The position numbers and the translations under genes are program-made. A DNA stretch of 64,000 bases from Bacteroidota bacterium (GTDB taxonomy: Bacteria; Bacteroidota; Bacteroidia; B-17B0; Aurantibacillaceae), in NCBI GenBank assembly GCA_013298715.1, contig JAAFIQ010000011.1, forward strand, positions 62,001 through 126,000, read 5' to 3'. This document shows positions 38,482 through 64,000 of the stretch, piece after piece. The notes under the pieces were generated by a model. That model was given only the letters and a program-made list of their open reading frames with translations, had not been told where the DNA came from and searched no databases. Positions within the stretch are counted from its first letter, which is position 1. Each line of letters begins with the position of its first letter.

Positions 38482-40632
38482 ATGAAAAAACAACTACTCT
38501 TTGGTTCTGCATTACTAGCCGCTGTTGCAGTTAATGCACAAACCAACAAAGCTAGGCCTTTTATATCTACAAAAGACCCTAGTAAATTATCTGGAAATGC
38601 GGCACTTAGTCCAAGTTTAGACGGTCCAACTTTTGTAGATGAAAACTTTTACATAATTAAACCTGGACAAGAGGTTAGCACAATGGAAAAATCCAATTCT
38701 GTTTTAACCCCAACGGTTACCTGGAATCGAATCTCAGGTTCAATGAACATTTATGGTATGTTGGTTTCTGAATCAAAACCTTTACAGTATAACCCAAATA
38801 TTAACGCCGTATCCTTTATCCACAGAAAAAGTGCTACTTATGTATCCACTCCATTTAGCACCAGCGGAACAATTGTTGGGATGATTTCAACTAATTGGGG
38901 TGCTACTTGGGACAGTACAACATTATGGGCGAGTGATGACAATATTAAGCGAGCTCGCTATCCACAAGGCGCTTTGCGTAACTCTCTAGGCAATACAAAT
39001 CCTAATAATGCTTATTTTGTAGCTTCAGGACCTATTACTTCAGGTTCTGGTTGGATTGGTAACTGGTATGCTAGTAAATCTGTTACTGCAACCCCAAAAA
39101 ACCAAGCTATCGAAATGCAAGATTTTGCAACCGTGCCAACAAATACTGCAATTCCAAAGCACGAATTCTCTCGACTAGGATTTGCATCTACTAATGATGA
39201 AATTGTAAGATCAGTTGGTATGCTAAATACTGGAGATGGAAACACTTTTGCCTTACTAGGTAGAAGAGGGGCGACAGTTGTTAAAGGTACCTTTAATGCT
39301 GGTGTACCGGTTTGGACTGGTGATACAATAATTTGCGATGCCGCGATGAGAACAGACAATGCAAAAACAATGAATGGTACACCACGTATGGCTTGGAATA
39401 GTGCTGGTACGGTTGGTTATATGGTATTTATAGGTTTAAGAAATGGTGCAACCGGAACAAAAAGAGGATGGCAACCAATTGTATACAAAACCACTAATTC
39501 TGGATTAACTTGGAGTGTAATTAGTGGTATTGATTTTGATAGCCAAGCTTATGATGCTGTTAAAAAACCATTACCTGCAATTTGGTCATCTACAACTGCA
39601 AACACCGCTTCAATTATTCCTCAATTCAATGAAAGTGAAGGTATGGATGTAACAGTTGACAAAAACAATAAATTACATATTTTCACAACCTTAGTTGGAA
39701 GTGGTAGCCCTCATGTAGATTCTGTAACTGCTGGTTACACTTTTACCTTTACAAATTATCCAGCAGATAGATATGATTTTGCTCACCAACCTGGGCAAAG
39801 ACCTTATCTATACGATTTCGTTGGCGATGGCTCAGCTGCCTGGACTTATTCAATTGTTGATTCAATGTCAACAGAAGGTATGTCTGGAACTTCTGGCGAA
39901 AAGGGATATTTAGAAAACCCTTGGAATGAAGATGCTAATGCTAAAGTAACGATAGATGCACGTTTACAAATGAGTAGAACTCCAAGCGGTGATGGTATAG
40001 TTTATTCATGGACAGAATCTGATACGAATGCAACTAACTTTGGAAAAAAATACAATAATAAACCAGACTTAAAAGTAAGACATGGGTTTTTTAATACAGC
40101 AGGAACTTATACAATCTCTTCGTCAGAATGGAATATATCCGCTCCTCCAATTAACGGAACAAATGGTGCAGTTAATTCAAAGGCCTGGTTTCATTACCAA
40201 TCTCCAATTTGTTCTGCATTCACCACTACAGGAAACATTAATACTGTAAGAGTTCCTTTCACCATATCTAATAGTTCACCATTGGATCAATTAGGTTCAA
40301 ACAACCACTACTATGCAACAAATACAATCGATTTTATAGCTATACCAGTAGGAATTTCAGAGAACTCGAGCAAAACTACTATCTCTAGCTTATCAATTTT
40401 CCCTAACCCTGCAAGTAATAATGCTAACGTTAGCTTAAGTTTAATTCAAGATGCAAAAGTTACAATTTCAGTAGTTAATACATTAGGACAAGTAGTTTCA
40501 ACAAGCACTGAAAAAGCTAATGCAGGTAAAAGTAATTTTAATATTGGTTTAAACGGTATCGCTAAAGGTATTTACTTTGTTAATGTAAAAGCAGGTACAC
40601 AAACTGCAACAACTAAATTAATAGTTGAATAA
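38482..40632 (+). CDS. T9SS-secreted protein of unknown function
   Basis: The 716-residue protein begins with a signal peptide (QLLFGSALLAAVAVNAQ). The central 500 residues contain scattered propeller-like segments (STNWGATWDSTTLW, KTTNSGLTWSVISG) reminiscent of exo-sialidase or BNR repeats, but no catalytic motif I recognise. The C-terminus (SIFPNPASNNANVSL, VVNTLGQVVSTS, AKGIYFVNVKAG) is a T9SS type A sorting domain. It is thus exported to the surface or medium. It appears monocistronic, with its own terminator. Confidence 0.82.
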   Translation: MKKQLLFGSALLAAVAVNAQTNKARPFISTKDPSKLSGNAALSPSLDGPTFVDENFYIIKPGQEVSTMEKSNSVLTPTVTWNRISGSMNIYGMLVSESKPLQYNPNINAVSFIHRKSATYVSTPFSTSGTIVGMISTNWGATWDSTTLWASDDNIKRARYPQGALRNSLGNTNPNNAYFVASGPITSGSGWIGNWYASKSVTATPKNQAIEMQDFATVPTNTAIPKHEFSRLGFASTNDEIVRSVGMLNTGDGNTFALLGRRGATVVKGTFNAGVPVWTGDTIICDAAMRTDNAKTMNGTPRMAWNSAGTVGYMVFIGLRNGATGTKRGWQPIVYKTTNSGLTWSVISGIDFDSQAYDAVKKPLPAIWSSTTANTASIIPQFNESEGMDVTVDKNNKLHIFTTLVGSGSPHVDSVTAGYTFTFTNYPADRYDFAHQPGQRPYLYDFVGDGSAAWTYSIVDSMSTEGMSGTSGEKGYLENPWNEDANAKVTIDARLQMSRTPSGDGIVYSWTESDTNATNFGKKYNNKPDLKVRHGFFNTAGTYTISSSEWNISAPPINGTNGAVNSKAWFHYQSPICSAFTTTGNINTVRVPFTISNSSPLDQLGSNNHYYATNTIDFIAIPVGISENSSKTTISSLSIFPNPASNNANVSLSLIQDAKVTISVVNTLGQVVSTSTEKANAGKSNFNIGLNGIAKGIYFVNVKAGTQTATTKLIVE

Positions 40633-41990: not shown

Positions 41991-41998
41991 TAACTTTG
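41991..41998 (+). promoter_or_regulatory. -7 promoter element TAACTTTG of the TonB-receptor cluster
   Basis: The exact match ends five bases before the ATG at 42004, so the cluster's mRNA would begin at or next to the start codon. No -33 match is seen. Confidence 0.55.
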
Positions 41999-42003
41999 CG
42001 AAA

Positions 42004-42348
42004 ATGAAAGGTAAACTTTTTAAAATAAGCAGTGGTATTTTCTTAATACTTATGGCATTATGGGTGGCTACACCTAAGGTTTATATTCATAATTTATTAA
42101 ACCATAATCATCATCAAGTTGTAAACCCAATTTCGGAGGGTGTAGTTATAAACGAATCTGGAGCTAATGATGACGATTGTGATTTTGAAAAATATAACAC
42201 CCCTAGTTACTTTAACATTTTTAATTTCCTCACCTCATTTATTCCTTCAAAACCACAAAGTGATTTAATACGTATCGATTATAAAGAAAAGGTTTCAACA
42301 AAACCAACCGATTACTTTTCATTACGCGCACCTCCTGCTAAAGCTTAA
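42004..42348 (+). CDS. Small membrane-anchored protein with His-rich and Asp/Cys motifs
   Basis: The 114-residue protein has one N-terminal hydrophobic segment (ISSGIFLILMALWVATPK), then YIHNLLNHNHHQ and an acidic DDDCDFEKY motif, and ends YFSLRAPPAKA. I recall similar short proteins, with an H-x-LL-x-H-x-H stretch and an RAPP tail, upstream of TonB receptors in Bacteroidota. His, Asp and Cys are plausible metal ligands. Its position as first gene of the cluster suggests a periplasmic metal-binding or sensing role. That role is inference; the family has no function I know of. Confidence 0.65.
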   Translation: MKGKLFKISSGIFLILMALWVATPKVYIHNLLNHNHHQVVNPISEGVVINESGANDDDCDFEKYNTPSYFNIFNFLTSFIPSKPQSDLIRIDYKEKVSTKPTDYFSLRAPPAKA

Positions 42349-42446
42349 TTTCAAGGCTTTAATCTCTTTCAATTTTTAAATTTAAAAAAAGGTTTATTGC
42401 CTTGATGTTGTTTTACATTCCAACATTAATTTTTTTATTTATTTAA

Positions 42447-44801
42447 TTGAAATTCAATTTAAAAATAGTTATTCTAGTATTTATTAGCTGCTTAGCTAAA
42501 GCCCAAACTTGCAATTTAAGTTTTAGAGGTTGTATTGCAGATGCTGATAATGGCGAACATTTGAGCTTCGCCATTGTAAAATTAGTTGAATTAGATAAAA
42601 CCTTACAAACAAACACTGAAGGTGAATTTGAATTTCAAAAAGTATGTGCAGGCAACTATAAACTGCTTGTAAAACATTTTGGTTGCAGAGATACTGTTTA
42701 CAATGTAACCATAAAAAATAGCAAACGCATAACTTTTAAATTACCACATGCAGCGCATAACCTTAATGAGATTGATATTATGGACAAGCGCGTTGAAATT
42801 AAGAGCACACAAACAGAAAGCAAATTAAGTGCGGAAGAACTAGAAAAATTGAAAGGACAAACGTTAGGAGATGTGTTGAAAAATGTGAGTGGCGTTACCA
42901 CCTTAAACACAGGGGGTACAATTTCTAAACCTATGCTGCACGGTATGCAAGGTTACAGGTTACTACTATTAAACAACGGTATACGACAAGAAGGACAACA
43001 ATGGGGCAATGAACATGCGCCTGAAATAGACCCTTTTATTGCTAAACGCGTTTCAGTTATTAAAGGGGCAAACGCCATCCGTTATGGCAGCGATGCTATT
43101 GCTGGTGTAGTTCTGATACAACCTAACGAATTACCTGATACAGCGGGTATTAATGGCGAAATAAATTTAGTTGGATTAAGCAATGGAAGAACCGGTGCTG
43201 CGAATGCCATGCTAGAGGGAAGTTTTAGCAAAATAAAAGGCTTTGCGTGGCGCGTTCAAGGCTCGGTAAAGCAAAGCGGAAATATTAAAACACCAAATTA
43301 TTACATAACTAACACAGGCATTAAAGAATTTAACTACAGCTATGCGCTTGGCTATCACAGAAAAAAATGGGGTGTAGAAATGTATTATTCGCAATTTAAT
43401 ACTAGCATCGGGATATTTAGAGGCTCACACATTGGAAACTTAACTGACTTGCAAAACGCCTTAACCAGAGGAAAACCTTTTGATAGTGCCGCTGTATTTA
43501 GTTACACAATTGGCAGACCAAATCAAGAAGCTACTCACGAATTAATTAAAGGCTTAGCGCATTATCATTTTGCTAGCAAATGGCGATTAAAATTGCAATA
43601 TGCATGGCAATACAATGCGCGTAAAGAATTTGACTTAAGACGATTAACTAACGAAGAAAAAATTACTGGCATTATAAATCCAGATTTAGATTTATACATT
43701 ACTTCGCAAACAGTACAAAGTATTTTAGAACACGATAACATAAATAATTTTAGAGGTGAATTTGGAACAAGTTATATGTATCAAGAAAATGTTTATCAAG
43801 GCAGATTTTTTATACCAAACTACATAGCTAATAGCTATGGAATTTATGCTACCGAACGCTACGTAAAACCGCATTTTGAAGCAGAGTTGGGTGTAAGGTA
43901 TGATGTGAAAGATTTGCAGTCTTATTTTTATAATTCTGATAAAATTTGGACGAATGAGAAGAGAATTTTTAATAACCTTTCGTATAACCTAGGTTTAATT
44001 TTTAAACCAACACAAAAACTAAATCTTTTTGTAAATGGTGGTTCGGCTTGGAGAGCGCCTGCTCCAAACGAGTTGTACAGCAATGGAGTTCATCAAGGCT
44101 TAGCATCAATAGAGCGAGGAGATAATTTATTAAAAACAGAGATCTGTTACAACATTACAACTAGCCTAATTTATCAAACAACAAAACTTAAACTAGAAGC
44201 TACTGCTTACCACAATCAGTTTCAAAATTTTATATACTTAAATCCAACAAATACTTTAGAGTTGACTATTAGAGGTGCTTTCCCAGTATTTAACTATGAG
44301 CAAGCAAATGTGCGAATTAGTGGTATTGATTTAAAAGGTGATTACCAAATTAATAAACACTTAAGCATGCAAAGTAAGGTAATGTTTGTAAGAGGTTTTA
44401 ATAAACGTATTAATGATTATTTAATTTATATGCCGAGTGATAGGGCAGATTTAGGAATAACTTATAGTTTAAAAGAAACTACCACTATTAAAAAAACAAA
44501 ACTACAACTTATTACACAATACGTAAATAAACAATGGCGTGTTCCACAGAACACAGATTTTGCTCCACCTCCTAGCTCCTATTATTTAGTGAACGCGGAG
44601 TTGAGTACACAGGTAAATTTTAAAAAGCAACCTCTATGTTTCCATTTTAGTGTTGTAAATCTACTAAACACGGTGTATAGAGAATATCTGGACCGCTTCC
44701 GCTATTTTACCGATGCTGCTGGCGTATCCTATAATCTAAGAATTACTTTACCACTTAACTTATATCAACCAAAAAATAAAACAAAAGATACAACCAGTTA
44801 A
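42447..44801 (+). CDS. TonB-dependent receptor with CarboxypepD-like N-terminal domain
   Basis: The 784-residue outer-membrane transporter has a signal peptide (IVILVFISCLAKAQ), then a carboxypeptidase-regulatory-like domain (about 20-105; GCIADADNGEHLSFAIVKL). The plug follows, with TLGDVLKNVSGVTTL, LHGMQGYRLLLLNNGIRQEG, and VSVIKGANAIRYGSDAIAGV. The barrel ends near LDRFRYFTDAAGVSYNLRI. The QEGQQWGNEHAPEIDPF loop matches a receptor group resembling zinc/copper or haem receptors such as ZnuD. TonB energises import through it. The start is TTG at 42447. The substrate is not established. Confidence 0.88.
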   Translation: MKFNLKIVILVFISCLAKAQTCNLSFRGCIADADNGEHLSFAIVKLVELDKTLQTNTEGEFEFQKVCAGNYKLLVKHFGCRDTVYNVTIKNSKRITFKLPHAAHNLNEIDIMDKRVEIKSTQTESKLSAEELEKLKGQTLGDVLKNVSGVTTLNTGGTISKPMLHGMQGYRLLLLNNGIRQEGQQWGNEHAPEIDPFIAKRVSVIKGANAIRYGSDAIAGVVLIQPNELPDTAGINGEINLVGLSNGRTGAANAMLEGSFSKIKGFAWRVQGSVKQSGNIKTPNYYITNTGIKEFNYSYALGYHRKKWGVEMYYSQFNTSIGIFRGSHIGNLTDLQNALTRGKPFDSAAVFSYTIGRPNQEATHELIKGLAHYHFASKWRLKLQYAWQYNARKEFDLRRLTNEEKITGIINPDLDLYITSQTVQSILEHDNINNFRGEFGTSYMYQENVYQGRFFIPNYIANSYGIYATERYVKPHFEAELGVRYDVKDLQSYFYNSDKIWTNEKRIFNNLSYNLGLIFKPTQKLNLFVNGGSAWRAPAPNELYSNGVHQGLASIERGDNLLKTEICYNITTSLIYQTTKLKLEATAYHNQFQNFIYLNPTNTLELTIRGAFPVFNYEQANVRISGIDLKGDYQINKHLSMQSKVMFVRGFNKRINDYLIYMPSDRADLGITYSLKETTTIKKTKLQLITQYVNKQWRVPQNTDFAPPPSSYYLVNAELSTQVNFKKQPLCFHFSVVNLLNTVYREYLDRFRYFTDAAGVSYNLRITLPLNLYQPKNKTKDTTS

Positions 44802-44828
44802 ATAAGACATTAAATGAGAAATGAGCAT

Positions 44829-45395
44829 ATGAAAAAAATAAAACATACTACGGTAATATCCGCATTAGCAATCGTTACATCGTTATTATCTTGCAAAAAA
44901 GATAAAGATTTAAGTCCGTTGCCGGCACCTGTTAACAACCCACCTGAAGTTATTACTAGTTTGCATTTAACTTTTGTTGATTCTAGCAACATAAGCAGCG
45001 TACAAACATTTAAATTCCGAGATCCGGATGGTGATGGTGGAAATCCTCCTGTGCAAAGAGATACTATCAAAATTAGTGCAAATAAAACATACAGCGTAAG
45101 CGTTTCTTTTTTTGATGAAACAAAAAATCCGATTGCAAATATTACCAATGAAATTAATAACGAAAAAAACGACCATCAGCTCTTTTTTAATTTTTCTGGG
45201 GTAAATGTACAATCTTTTTATTTGGATAAAGATGGAAATAATTTACCAATTGGCTTGATGAACTTGTGGAGAGTAAAGGCAACTTCCAATGGCACCGTTA
45301 AAGTAGTATTAAAGCATCAGCCAGGAATAAAAAACAACTCGCAAAGCACCGGAGAAAGCGACGCCGATGTAGATTTTCAACTTAAAATTCAATAA
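44829..45395 (+). CDS. Lipoprotein of the 'type 1 periplasmic binding fold' family found beside TonB receptors
   Basis: I chose the ATG at 44829, giving MKKIKHTTVISALAIVTSLL and a lipobox ending LLSCKKD; the 44814 start adds five charged residues. The 188-residue protein has FKFRDPDGDGGNPP and LDKDGNNLPIGL, which look like Asp-rich metal-coordinating loops. NEKNDHQLFFNFSG and the GESDADVDFQLKI end are also family features. Bacteroidota homologues are commonly annotated type 1 periplasmic binding fold superfamily protein and recur next to TonB receptors. It probably sits at the outer membrane, helping the receptor. Ligand unknown. Confidence 0.7.
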   Translation: MKKIKHTTVISALAIVTSLLSCKKDKDLSPLPAPVNNPPEVITSLHLTFVDSSNISSVQTFKFRDPDGDGGNPPVQRDTIKISANKTYSVSVSFFDETKNPIANITNEINNEKNDHQLFFNFSGVNVQSFYLDKDGNNLPIGLMNLWRVKATSNGTVKVVLKHQPGIKNNSQSTGESDADVDFQLKIQ

Positions 45396-45398
45396 AAA

Positions 45399-45851
45399 AT
45401 GAAAACAATAAAATTAATTTTAGTGGCACTTATAGTTATAACATATAGTGCTTGTAATAAAACAAAATACAGAAGTAATAGAATAGATGATAACAAATGG
45501 CAAATTGTTACCTTAACCGTTGATGGCGTTAGCGATAATTACTTACCTACATTAAAATTTAATGATTCTGATATTTATAAAGAAGCTTCAAAAGGTTGGT
45601 GGTATTATGGGGAAGAAGGACACGGTGAAATAGCTTGGCAGTTTAGGGATAATGGTAAAATTTTTGAATTTAGTAACCAAGCAGACCATGCACATGGCGT
45701 AGAAGATGTTAAAGCGGCGGAGCAGGCAATAAACTATTCTGGCGTTTACAAAGTTATAAAATTAAGCAGAAATAATTTTGAAATAGAAAGTAACGAAACC
45801 TTTGGCAACAAAGGCAAGAAGGTAATTATTAAAATGAATAGAAAAAAATAA
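45399..45851 (+). CDS. Small lipoprotein, lipocalin-like, in TonB-receptor cluster
   Basis: The 150-residue protein has a lipoprotein signal (IKLILVALIVITYSACNKT, Cys about residue 19). The mature part is strand-rich: DNKWQIVTLTVDGVSDN resembles the opening of lipocalin-like domains, and FRDNGKIFEFSN and YKVIKLSRNNFEIES look like later strands. The EEGHGEIAW and QADHAHGVED segments hold histidines that could bind a metal. It begins 3 bases after the preceding lipoprotein gene. Function is unknown; the metal link is inferred from context and composition. Confidence 0.65.
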   Translation: MKTIKLILVALIVITYSACNKTKYRSNRIDDNKWQIVTLTVDGVSDNYLPTLKFNDSDIYKEASKGWWYYGEEGHGEIAWQFRDNGKIFEFSNQADHAHGVEDVKAAEQAINYSGVYKVIKLSRNNFEIESNETFGNKGKKVIIKMNRKK

Positions 45852-45880
45852 ATTAATATAAACCCAAAAAACCAATACAA

Positions 45881-46093
45881 ATGAAAAAACAAATCAAAAA
45901 CGTAGCCCTAGTAGTGGCTTTAGTAGCAAGTTTAAGCTCATGTAAAAAAACGTATGAATGTCATTGTGATAAAGTAGGCGGCGGTGATGAACACTTTGAC
46001 TTTAAAGAAAAAGAAAAATCGGATGCAGAAACTAAGTGCAAAGCTAAACAAACAGAAAACACAACTAAATACACCAAGTGTATGCTGGAGTAA
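45881..46093 (+). CDS. Very small Cys/His-containing lipoprotein, last gene of TonB-receptor cluster
   Basis: The 70-residue protein has the signal NVALVVALVASLSSCKK (Cys about residue 21), then YECHCDKVGGGDEHFDF and two further cysteines (TKCKAKQ and TKCMLE). The four post-lipobox cysteines could form disulfides or a metal site. The gene lies 29 bases downstream of the lipocalin-like gene, and a terminator follows it, so it closes the operon. I do not recognise the family. Confidence 0.6.
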   Translation: MKKQIKNVALVVALVASLSSCKKTYECHCDKVGGGDEHFDFKEKEKSDAETKCKAKQTENTTKYTKCMLE

Positions 46094-46119
46094 TTTTTGA
46101 AATCTTATGTTTTTAAAGG

Positions 46120-46154
46120 TGGCAAGCTCTATGTATTTGGTACTTGCCATTTTT
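46120..46154 (+). terminator. Probable terminator of the TonB-receptor cluster
   Basis: The 7-bp stem TGGCAAG/CTTGCCA has a 16-base loop and is followed by a T run. It lies 27 bases after the last gene. Confidence 0.6.
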
Positions 46155-46155
46155 A

Positions 46156-46179
46156 ATTAAAGTTGTTTCAACCCTAAAT
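46156..46179 (+). repeat. 24-bp direct repeat, left flank of MITE-like element
   Basis: This sequence, which includes AGTTGTTTCAACCCTAAAT, directly abuts the left end of the element. It recurs with one mismatch at the right end (46424-46447). Confidence 0.75.
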
Positions 46180-46422
46180 AGGGTTCACTCAAAATGTATA
46201 AAAATTAACTGAATCAAGGCAGCGAAGTGAAGATGTATATAAATACTTCGAACTGAGCTAACGACGAGTCAGTTAATTTTTATTAAGCCAAAAGGAATAA
46301 AGCTACTCTATTTTTTAGTGCAAGGATTTTCTCAAAATAGTTCAAAAAACTTTGCACATAAAAATGGATTTAACCCTTACATCTCTTATCAGTTGGCATA
46401 TTTGCGTTTTTGAGTGAACCCT
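46180..46422 (+). mobile_element. MITE-like element, copy 1 (243 bp)
   Basis: The ends are perfect 15-bp inverted repeats, AGGGTTCACTCAAAA and TTTTGAGTGAACCCT. An inner inverted pair, AAAATTAACTGA and TCAGTTAATTTT, suggests strong folding. It has no reading frame. Two further copies, at 61650 and 63928, share the ends and interior. It is probably moved in trans by an unidentified transposase. Confidence 0.8.
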
Positions 46423-46423
46423 A

Positions 46424-46447
46424 ATTAAGGTTGTTTCAACCCTAAAT
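46424..46447 (+). repeat. 24-bp direct repeat, right flank of MITE-like element
   Basis: It matches 46156-46179 with one mismatch. It could be a target duplication, or an older tandem repeat; 24 bp is long for a duplication. Confidence 0.7.
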
Positions 46448-46652
46448 AAGAGAGTTAGTTCCTCGATAAAATCGACTTCTAATTTCCAAATACGGTTCAA
46501 TTTACTCTGTCAAATATAAGAGTATTAACTTTTCAATGCTCAATAAACGGATCAATTAAACTTTCTAAATCAATATAAAAAAAAGAAAAAACCCCTGAAA
46601 CACCAATATTATCAATGGTTTTAAACAGATTATGATTGAAAACACCGTTGTA

Positions 46653-61288: not shown

Positions 61289-61651
61289 ATGACTATTAAA
61301 ATTCATCAAATAGATAGCTCAAAAATTGCAGAATTAATCTCAGAAGAAATACTTATAAGTAATGTTGAAGATGGTACTAACCTGCTTGGCGATTTATACT
61401 ATCAAGATTTTGATAAAGTAATTATTTATGAGAAAAACATTACACCAAATTTTTTTGACCTAAAAACAGGAATTGCTGGTGAAATTCTTCAAAAATTTTC
61501 TAACTATCGCGTTAAGCTTGTAATTGTTGGTGATTTTTCGAAATATACCAGCAATAGTTTGAACAGCTTTTTTATTGAGAGTAACAAACGTAAACACGTT
61601 AATTTTGTATCAACACTTTCTGAGGCTATAAATGCTTCAACTATTAAATAG
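61289..61651 (+). CDS. DUF4180 domain protein
   Basis: The 120-residue protein matches DUF4180 in length and layout: ISNVEDGTNLLGDLYYQDF, then KVIIYEKNITPNFFDLKTG and KLVIVGDFSKYTSNSLNSFF. It has a compact alpha/beta fold and no signal peptide. Function is unknown; members occur singly and in accessory DNA. Its TAG stop (61649-61651) overlaps the first two bases of the MITE-like element copy 2, so the element inserted at the very end of the gene or supplied the stop. Confidence 0.8.
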   Translation: MTIKIHQIDSSKIAELISEEILISNVEDGTNLLGDLYYQDFDKVIIYEKNITPNFFDLKTGIAGEILQKFSNYRVKLVIVGDFSKYTSNSLNSFFIESNKRKHVNFVSTLSEAINASTIK

Positions 61652-61928
61652 ATTCACTCATAATGTATCAAAATTAACTGAATCGACCTGCCTAAGGTGG
61701 GCACGGGCAGCGAATTAAAGATGTATACAAATACTTCGAACTGACCTGCCTGCGGCAAGCAGGGCTAACGACGAGTCAGTTAATTTTTATCAAGCCAAAA
61801 GAAATAAAAAACTCTATTTTTTAGTGCAAGGATTTTCTCAAAAAATTTCAAAAAGCTTTACATATAAAAAGGGATTTAACCCTCAAATCTCTTGTTAATT
61901 GGCATATTTGCGTTTTTGAGGGAACCCT
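61650..61928 (+). mobile_element. MITE-like element, copy 2 (279 bp)
   Basis: It shares the ends (AGATTCACTCATAAT and TTTTGAGGGAACCCT, each slightly diverged) and the interior with copy 1. It is 36 bases longer because two GC-rich palindromic insertions are present, within about 61684-61710 and at 61744-61763. It fills most of the 329-base gap between the DUF4180 and sensor genes. Confidence 0.8.
61744..61763. repeat. GC-rich nested palindrome inside MITE-like copy 2
   Basis: ACCTGCCTGCGGCAAGCAGG can form a hairpin and is absent from copy 1 at the same place. A related CTGCC...GGGCAG palindrome lies about 60 bases upstream in this copy and in copy 3. Confidence 0.6.
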
Positions 61929-61980
61929 AAATAGGGTTTACCAAGTGAAACAAAGAGTGATTTTAATTTACAACTAAAGT

Positions 61981-63687: not shown

Positions 63688-63927
63688 AGGACTAATGTCC
63701 AAAACAAAGGAAAGGAAAATAAGTAATTTGTGTTTTAAACTAAGATTTAATATTGAAGCTAAGAAAACTTTACAGATGCTCGCAAAACGTTATTAATTAC
63801 AAATATTTTAACCGCTATTTTAACATGATGACAATCTAAAATTTACCTCTATTCCTGTATTAGAACTTAATTTAGCAGAAGAGCTGAGGAGGTGGTAACT
63901 CAAAGAATATGCTGGCAAGCATTAAGT

Positions 63928-64000
63928 AGGGTTCACTCAAAATGTATAAAAATTAACTGAATCGACCTGCCTACGGCGGGCACGGGCAGCGAAGTGAAGA
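63928..64000 (+). mobile_element. MITE-like element, copy 3 (cut by window edge)
   Basis: AGGGTTCACTCAAAA, identical to the copy 1 left end, is followed by 58 bases matching copies 1 and 2, including the first GC-rich insertion seen in copy 2. The rest lies beyond the window. The orientation is the same as copies 1 and 2. Confidence 0.75.

Follow-up and report, generated by a model that had tools for sequence, protein, structure and literature searches.

We examined a five-gene cluster (A to E) on the forward strand of a 64,000-nucleotide stretch of DNA, hereafter the window, from a Bacteroidota bacterium of the Aurantibacillaceae (NCBI GenBank assembly GCA_013298715.1, contig JAAFIQ010000011.1, positions 62,001 to 126,000). 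An earlier reading made from the sequence alone had placed five envelope genes around a TonB receptor on one strand between 42004 and 46093, and all five open reading frames were recovered there (Table 1), separated by gaps of 98, 12, 3 and 29 bp, with gene B starting at a TTG codon directly 3' of an in-frame stop. Here we propose that the cluster is very probably a TonB-dependent zinc-acquisition operon working like ZnuD of Neisseria meningitidis. The sequence-only reading had guessed at metal acquisition, and a survey of relatives narrows that guess towards zinc: ZnuD is the nearest solved receptor, genes for ZigA-type GTPases, Zur-like repressors and MerC-type proteins lie near related receptors, and a palindrome marks such genes in some other genomes.

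Table 1. Genes and transcription signals of the cluster, in window coordinates
Feature	Position	Strand	Description
Possible -7 element TAACTTTG	41991-41998	+	Very short-leader or leaderless promoter, weak
A	42004-42348	+	Small protein with a single N-terminal hydrophobic stretch, the cluster HNLLNHNHH and a RAPP tail
B	42447-44801	+	ZnuD-like TonB-dependent receptor, CarboxypepD-like N-terminal domain
C	44814-45395	+	Beta-sandwich lipoprotein, no Pfam family, C-K-K-D-K-D at lipobox
D	45399-45851	+	Lipocalin-fold lipoprotein, His in loops, accessory
E	45881-46093	+	Tiny lipoprotein, four conserved Cys, accessory
Intrinsic terminator 3' of E	46113-46156	+	z -6.1

The receptor and its predicted zinc ligands

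Pfam divides B into a CarboxypepD-like domain, a plug and a barrel, in line with the CarboxypepD-type TonB receptor first described for it. A search of the PDB with the single B sequence ranked ZnuD first (E-value 6.3e-17), and a profile built from 21 receptors again placed ZnuD (4rdr) at the top (4.6e-36), followed by 9gbc, a 'TonB-linked outer membrane receptor' (3.8e-21), and more weakly by PhuR (5.5e-19), ShuA (3.3e-14) and OprC (5.1e-13). The zinc ligands of ZnuD are reported as Asp99, His100, Glu340 and His499 (PMC4557270); by position counting, residues 113, 114 and 513 of the 4rdr chain are D99, H100 and H499, and these three align with E189 (D in some relatives), H190 and H549 of B. 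A fourth residue, E394, could be the counterpart of Glu340. Position 189 is E or D, together with H190, E394 and H549, in all 39 receptors sampled across the phylum and in 116 of 117 others, one showing a gap; E394 itself is kept in 155 of 156 receptors, with one gap. By comparison, E428 and H429, which looked invariant in 21 receptors, vary across the phylum and were dropped as candidate ligands.

These counts draw on several sets of loci. A scan of genome contigs gave at least 585 stretches in which a relative is encoded, and the best 80 were kept as named loci; because the patterns used to pick them included [ED]HAP, their conservation at E/D189-H190 is partly a product of selection, and loci L046 to L085 and L209 to L248 were picked without such patterns. 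Some loci overlap (L097 and L067 lie on one contig), and B was not recognised by the gene calls in 2 of the 80 named, 1 of the 40 phylum-wide and 1 of the 40 family-set loci, which were counted as misses. Receptors of the B family (E-value 1e-60 or better) were present in 100 of 392 Bacteroidota genomes, the window genome included, and a search of viral contigs returned no relative of B.

Partner proteins of the receptor

The gene for the lipoprotein C adjoins B in 42 of the 47 family genomes that have B, is found near B in 35 of the 39 phylum-wide loci in which B was recognised (out of 40; ahead of B in two), and is present in 41 of 48 dereplicated loci. Among the five exceptions in the family, three (G067, G082 and G066) end at or near a contig end and a fourth (G037) has B and C on separate contigs. 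The remaining genome, G004, consists of two contigs and has its B and C matches far apart (G004:C1:299044; L048), and is the only family genome in which the two genes are clearly separated.

As first described, C carries a DxDGDG-type motif (DPDGDGG) and a lipobox-like Cys, the latter shared with D and E. Because C reads C-K-K-D-K-D from that Cys, close to the Capnocytophaga surface export signal C-X-K-(D/E)2-X (PMC5080379), it is probably surface-exposed. E45, H121, D140, H168, K173 and D183 are identical in all 61 aligned C proteins, D70 in 60, and D72 and D138 in 57 each. The structure model of C is a beta sandwich (predicted local distance difference test (pLDDT) score 90.3) in which H121, D138/D140, H168 and D183, judged by strand order, would gather at one end as a possible metal site. 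Pfam returned no match to C of the window at an E-value of 1 and only stray matches to the 61 proteins, Foldseek gave none at 0.001 or better, and profiles of C and D found no convincing relative in the PDB. Fold comparison of C led only to common beta-sandwiches (best VIA Z 8.8, root-mean-square deviation 3.2 over 106 residues).

A belongs to a group of divergent small proteins whose N-terminal part has a single hydrophobic stretch and which end in an R[G/A]PP tail. The label 'His-rich', given to it earlier, holds locally, for the four His between residues 29 and 37, and not for the protein as a whole. In an alignment of 41 A-type proteins, H34, R108, P110 and P111 occur in every row, C59 in 40 and H29 in 37; because the rows were partly picked by their R[G/A]PP tail, the invariance of the tail is not independent evidence. 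In 71 of 117 loci the 900 bp upstream of B contain a gene for an A-type or R[G/A]PP protein, compared with 15 R[G/A]PP tails among 707 other small open reading frames of these loci. A of the window has no Pfam family and does not reach the gathering score of DUF2946 (PF11162). One of the 41 A-type proteins matches DUF2946 weakly, at an E-value of 0.0086, and we take the RGPP tail of DUF2946 to be similar to that of the A group. DUF2946 small proteins are also listed in the Caulobacter zur data (PMC4176598).

D and E are rarer. The model of D (pLDDT 85.2) adopts a lipocalin fold, as had been suspected, matching 5epq (VIA Z 11.2, root-mean-square deviation 2.4 over 102 residues) and 4qrl (Z 10.8, 2.8 over 99 residues); D stands beside B in 5 of the 48 dereplicated loci and its alignment has 8 rows. 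E does have four Cys besides the lipobox Cys (6-row alignment) and was found in 4 of the 40 family-set loci. These Cys had been thought suited to metals; they look more like disulfides, and their pattern suggests two. The five genes proposed as a unit are all present in the window; the conserved core is A-B-C, with D and E as infrequent accessories.

Zinc-related neighbours, a candidate operator and transcription signals

The nearest relative with all five genes, L046 (B 68% identical), continues on the same strand directly 3' of them with genes for a 413-residue GTPase, a DUF6702 protein, a HupE-type protein, a second COG0523 protein and a NicO-type protein. The GTPase scores 556.5 bits against the NCBIfam ZigA model NF038288, three times the next model and below the cut-off of 600, and is called ZigA-type here rather than ZigA proper. 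Similar genes in L067, L130, L142 and L163 score 555-572 bits, the next-best NCBIfam model reaching at most 190 bits for any of these proteins, and a ZigA-type gene lies near B in 5 of the 48 dereplicated loci. COG0523 proteins and TonB receptors are described as usual members of Zur regulons (PMC6103462). A Zur-like gene of the Fur family lies near B in 17 of the 80 named loci (13 of the 17 from Dyadobacter), 4 of the 48 dereplicated and 2 of the 39 phylum-wide loci. Against the PDB, the protein from L103 matched FurB, a probable zinc uptake regulator (E-value 1.6e-6), ahead of PerR (2.5e-5) and Escherichia coli Zur (3.4e-5). MerC-type genes occur in 3 of the 48 dereplicated loci, two of them checked by Pfam, and L067 shows a weak HMA match.

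A palindrome, TGCAACN3GTTGCA, first seen in promoters of the Dyadobacter relatives, links several of these genes. The 80 named loci hold 46 exact copies in 1.24 Mb, compared with none in five mononucleotide-shuffled sets. Forty-four of them, spread over 29 loci, fall in the interval from -70 to +320 bp around a gene start, which is that of B for 23 copies, of a Zur-like gene for 16, of an RGPP gene for 3 and of a MerC gene for 2; the other two stand at a flavoprotein-like gene and at a gene for a His-rich lipoprotein. Genome-wide counts were seven in G478 (Dyadobacter koreensis, reached from L103), three in G414 (the genome of L237), two in G010, one in G021 and none in the window genome, and the reversed control pattern was absent from all five genomes. 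In G478 one copy lies at B, one between zur and a divergent gene for a 148-residue protein (in the related L102, MerC), one by a second C that stands alone (profile E-value 1.1e-68), one at an RGPP gene ahead of another receptor gene with an EH motif (2.6e-52), and two at a ZigA-type gene (556 bits); its seventh copy falls between genes for a His-rich putative lipoprotein and for a 184-residue protein without a family, the latter directly 5' of the ZigA-type gene. In G414, two copies mark a ZigA-type gene (563 bits) and one the RGPP-B-C operon, and in G010 one stands at zur, facing an operon of RGPP and ZigA-type genes. The single copy in G021 lies inside a coding region, presumably of a purE-like gene, and looks like chance. 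Altogether, 10 of the 13 copies in these four genomes stand at genes for B, C, RGPP or ZigA-type proteins or at zur; of the other three, one lies just before a ZigA-type gene, one at an ABC (ATP-binding cassette) ATPase gene and one within a gene. We regard TGCAACN3GTTGCA as a candidate Zur operator in part of the Bacteroidota.

Other features accompany the palindrome. The second copy in G010 lies directly 5' of the ABC ATPase gene (L252:785-1483), possibly part of a zinc-regulated transporter. His-rich putative lipoproteins are encoded beside the palindrome at L165:10965-12167 and L262:1067-1480; the latter has no Pfam or NCBIfam family, and the former may resemble AztD, a zinc chaperone of the periplasm. 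In L046 to L083, the inverted repeats of individual promoters had no motif in common by eye. A second sequence, TGTTAAAA, was enriched upstream of relatives (7 of 36, versus 1.7% of 465 background regions). The region ahead of A showed no copy, and we make no claim for this sequence as a family operator. A control with five paralogues used truncated loci and is weak.

In the window, both flanking genes, which we take to encode a release-factor-like protein upstream and a MutS2-like protein downstream, lie on the opposite strand, so that the five genes form a stand-alone unit. The terminator proposed after E is strong (-19.4 kcal/mol, compared with a shuffle mean of -6.8; z -6.1; none of 200 shuffles as good). 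The leaderless promoter proposed before A stands only in part: TAACTTTG, just 5' of the start of A, fits what we take to be the -7 consensus, and the partner TTTG at 16-24 bp is missing, TTTG-N16-24-TAnnTTTG having no match upstream of A. The window also carries a dispersed repeat, about 250 bp long and inverted at its ends, that resembles a miniature inverted-repeat transposable element (46160-46455; also 61645-61938 and 63923-64000). Its arms at 46153-46194 and 46408-46449 are 81% complementary, and a search of the window genome gave 43 matches, including its own opposite arm. Positions 38482-40632 encode a secreted protein whose C-terminal end resembles a sorting domain and which is presumably type IX secretion cargo.

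Proposed zinc uptake, alternative substrates and known systems

We envisage the following route. C, and in some lineages D, would capture zinc at the outer membrane or close to it, as suggested by the lipobox, the export-signal-like start and the invariant His and Asp residues. B would then take the ion into a buried site formed by E189 and H190 of the plug-apical loop, H549 of loop 6 and probably E394, three of these positions being aligned with ZnuD and the fourth proposed by analogy, and would pass it inward with energy from TonB, as expected of its family. A, presumably anchored in a membrane so that its His/Cys part lies in the periplasm, may receive or buffer the ion, and an inner-membrane importer, perhaps the product of the single ZIP-family gene of the window genome, would complete uptake. 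In some relatives, control would fall to a Zur-like protein acting at TGCAACN3GTTGCA, with a ZigA-type partner.

Several observations weigh against this assignment. The best NCBIfam models of B are those of haem/haemoglobin receptors, TIGR01785 and TIGR01786 (156.5 and 151.4 bits, versus 113.9 for the ZnuD model NF038289), every model being far below its cut-off (316.85 for TIGR01785, 950 bits over the whole protein for ZnuD). ZnuD E340 falls outside the profile alignment, so E394 is matched to it by position only and their equivalence is something we infer. Two of the Zur-like proteins score slightly better against NCBIfam PerR than Zur models, and the label 'Zur-like' therefore rests on context more than on sequence. 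The NicO- or HupE-type genes in the extended operons of L067 and L046 may point to nickel or cobalt. The exact palindrome is absent from 51 of the 80 named loci, from 37 of the 40 phylum-wide loci (exact in L215, L221 and L237, one-mismatch copies in six) and from 39 of the 40 family-set loci (exact in L067 only, a distant one-mismatch copy in L055); neither L046, with its ZigA-type gene, nor L142, with its Zur-like gene, has an exact copy at the locus. Because the operator is not the sole basis of the assignment, the loci that lack it leave our confidence in ZnuD-like zinc uptake unchanged, though they count against the wider proposal made below.

The window genome itself belongs among these counterpoints. 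It has one Fur-family gene at the threshold used, which is not Zur-like by alignment; a search for ZnuA found no match, the same search being positive in 11 of 14 control genomes; a search with a ZigA-type protein was likewise empty, an answer that alone shows nothing; and no TGCAACN3GTTGCA is present. Three cobW matches passed the Pfam cut-off at 22-27 bits, compared with 192-196 for ZigA-type proteins, and were rejected. A Zur-like repressor together with the palindrome is found in G478 and G010 and not in the window genome; of the Zur sites that the earlier reading proposed to look for, candidates lie at receptor, zur and ZigA-type genes of some other genomes. With no Zur-like gene, ZigA-type match or palindrome found in the window genome, its transport genes are thus retained without the control circuit seen elsewhere.

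Within zinc uptake, B might import a zincophore or a zinc-protein complex docked by C or D, a variant that overlaps the reading proposed here and that we consider unlikely. TonB receptors of zinc regulons are reported often to take metallophores (PMC6103462), the Bacteroides lipoprotein XusB is described as handing siderophores to XusA (PMC13142918), and the lipocalin fold of D is common for small ligands; against this, the conserved carboxylate-His set resembles the bare-ion site of ZnuD, and no metallophore synthesis gene was noted among the recurring neighbours, though none was searched for.

A second possibility, which we regard as improbable, is that B is a haem or haemoglobin receptor with C and D as haem-binding partners. 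Beyond the NCBIfam ranking, a two-His clamp is reported as common to ZnuD and haem receptors, ZnuD itself having once been annotated as one (PMC4557270), and BfpR of Flavobacterium psychrophilum, a TIGR01785-type receptor encoded behind asd and a small gene, is reported as a haem/haemoglobin receptor that supports growth at 1% haemoglobin (PMC9331221). L230 and L234 read asd, RGPP gene, B, C, and L237 does so with one gene between (the identity of asd was checked by NCBIfam for L234 only); because BfpR shares the layout of L230 and L234, it is possibly a member of the B family, by layout only. The haemoglobin assignment of BfpR is the main published result against zinc, and BfpR is also the case in which the zinc assignment predicts most sharply. 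Against haem, the profile match to ZnuD is far stronger than to PhuR or ShuA, the extra conserved carboxylates of B suit a metal ion, the neighbours include ZigA-type, Zur-like and MerC genes, and the three palindromes of G414, the genome of L237, stand at its RGPP-B-C operon and at its ZigA-type gene; within one mismatch, no palindrome occurs in L230 or L234.

Slimmer still is the prospect that B takes up a different transition metal, for example copper, nickel or cobalt. The NicO- and HupE-type genes of L046 and L067, the weak HMA match in L067 and the presence of OprC among the PDB matches speak for it; yet the recurring GTPase is of the ZigA type rather than CobW, HypB or UreG, the copper receptor model TIGR01778 gives B 64.6 bits against a cut-off of 472.45, and in G478, G414 and G010 the palindrome is shared by receptor or zur genes and ZigA-type genes. 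A SusC/SusD glycan pair was rejected, B scoring 18.4 bits with TIGR04057 (cut-off 46.2) and A, C, D and E showing no SusD match at an E-value of 1.

Zinc uptake by a ZnuD-like receptor can be set beside several described systems. ZnuD (4rdr; PMC4557270) is the best solved match of B, with the Asp-His of its plug loop and the His of loop 6 aligned; B differs in its CarboxypepD-like N-terminal domain, in falling short of the NCBIfam ZnuD cut-off and in the company of A, C, D and E; the loops compared are the plug loop and loop 6, ZnuD having His-rich clusters in loop 3 as well. In the Zur regulon of Caulobacter crescentus, the TonB receptors ZnuK and ZnuL, a COG0523 gene and an ABC-2 type transporter are reported to be zinc-repressed together, the transporter recalling the ABC ATPase gene behind the second palindrome of G010; the operators there are of the GTTAT...ATAAC kind rather than TGCAACN3GTTGCA, and the available account notes no C-like lipoprotein (PMC4176598). 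In Riemerella anatipestifer (Flavobacteriales), several TonB receptors altered in a zntR mutant were suggested to serve zinc homeostasis; they are likened to B by description only, and the accessible text neither assigns them singly nor mentions a partner lipoprotein (PMC11960050). XusAB of Bacteroides, also likened by description only, resembles B-C in pairing a TonB transporter with a dedicated lipoprotein for a metal source, and differs in its substrate, a xenosiderophore carrying iron (PMC13142918). The word stem 'Bacteroid' is absent from the available text of the Zur-regulon review (PMC6103462), and among the literature matches listed, a coverage outside which most subscription papers lie, we recognised no described Bacteroidota zinc receptor of this make.

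Tentatively, and with clearly less confidence than in zinc uptake itself, we suggest that Bacteroidota lineages possess a zinc system of their own make, combining a ZnuD-like receptor, a dedicated zinc-binding C and His/Cys membrane proteins of the A type, with an R[G/A]PP tail that would act as docking signal when they pass metal on. In part of the phylum the system would be under a Zur-like repressor that reads TGCAACN3GTTGCA, and some 'haem' receptors, BfpR perhaps among them, would really be zinc receptors. What emerges is an operator open to testing, a receptor whose zinc ligands are predicted, and two groups of partner proteins that belong to no Pfam or NCBIfam family. The haem labels that such receptors receive from family models are also put in question, as once happened with ZnuD (PMC4557270).

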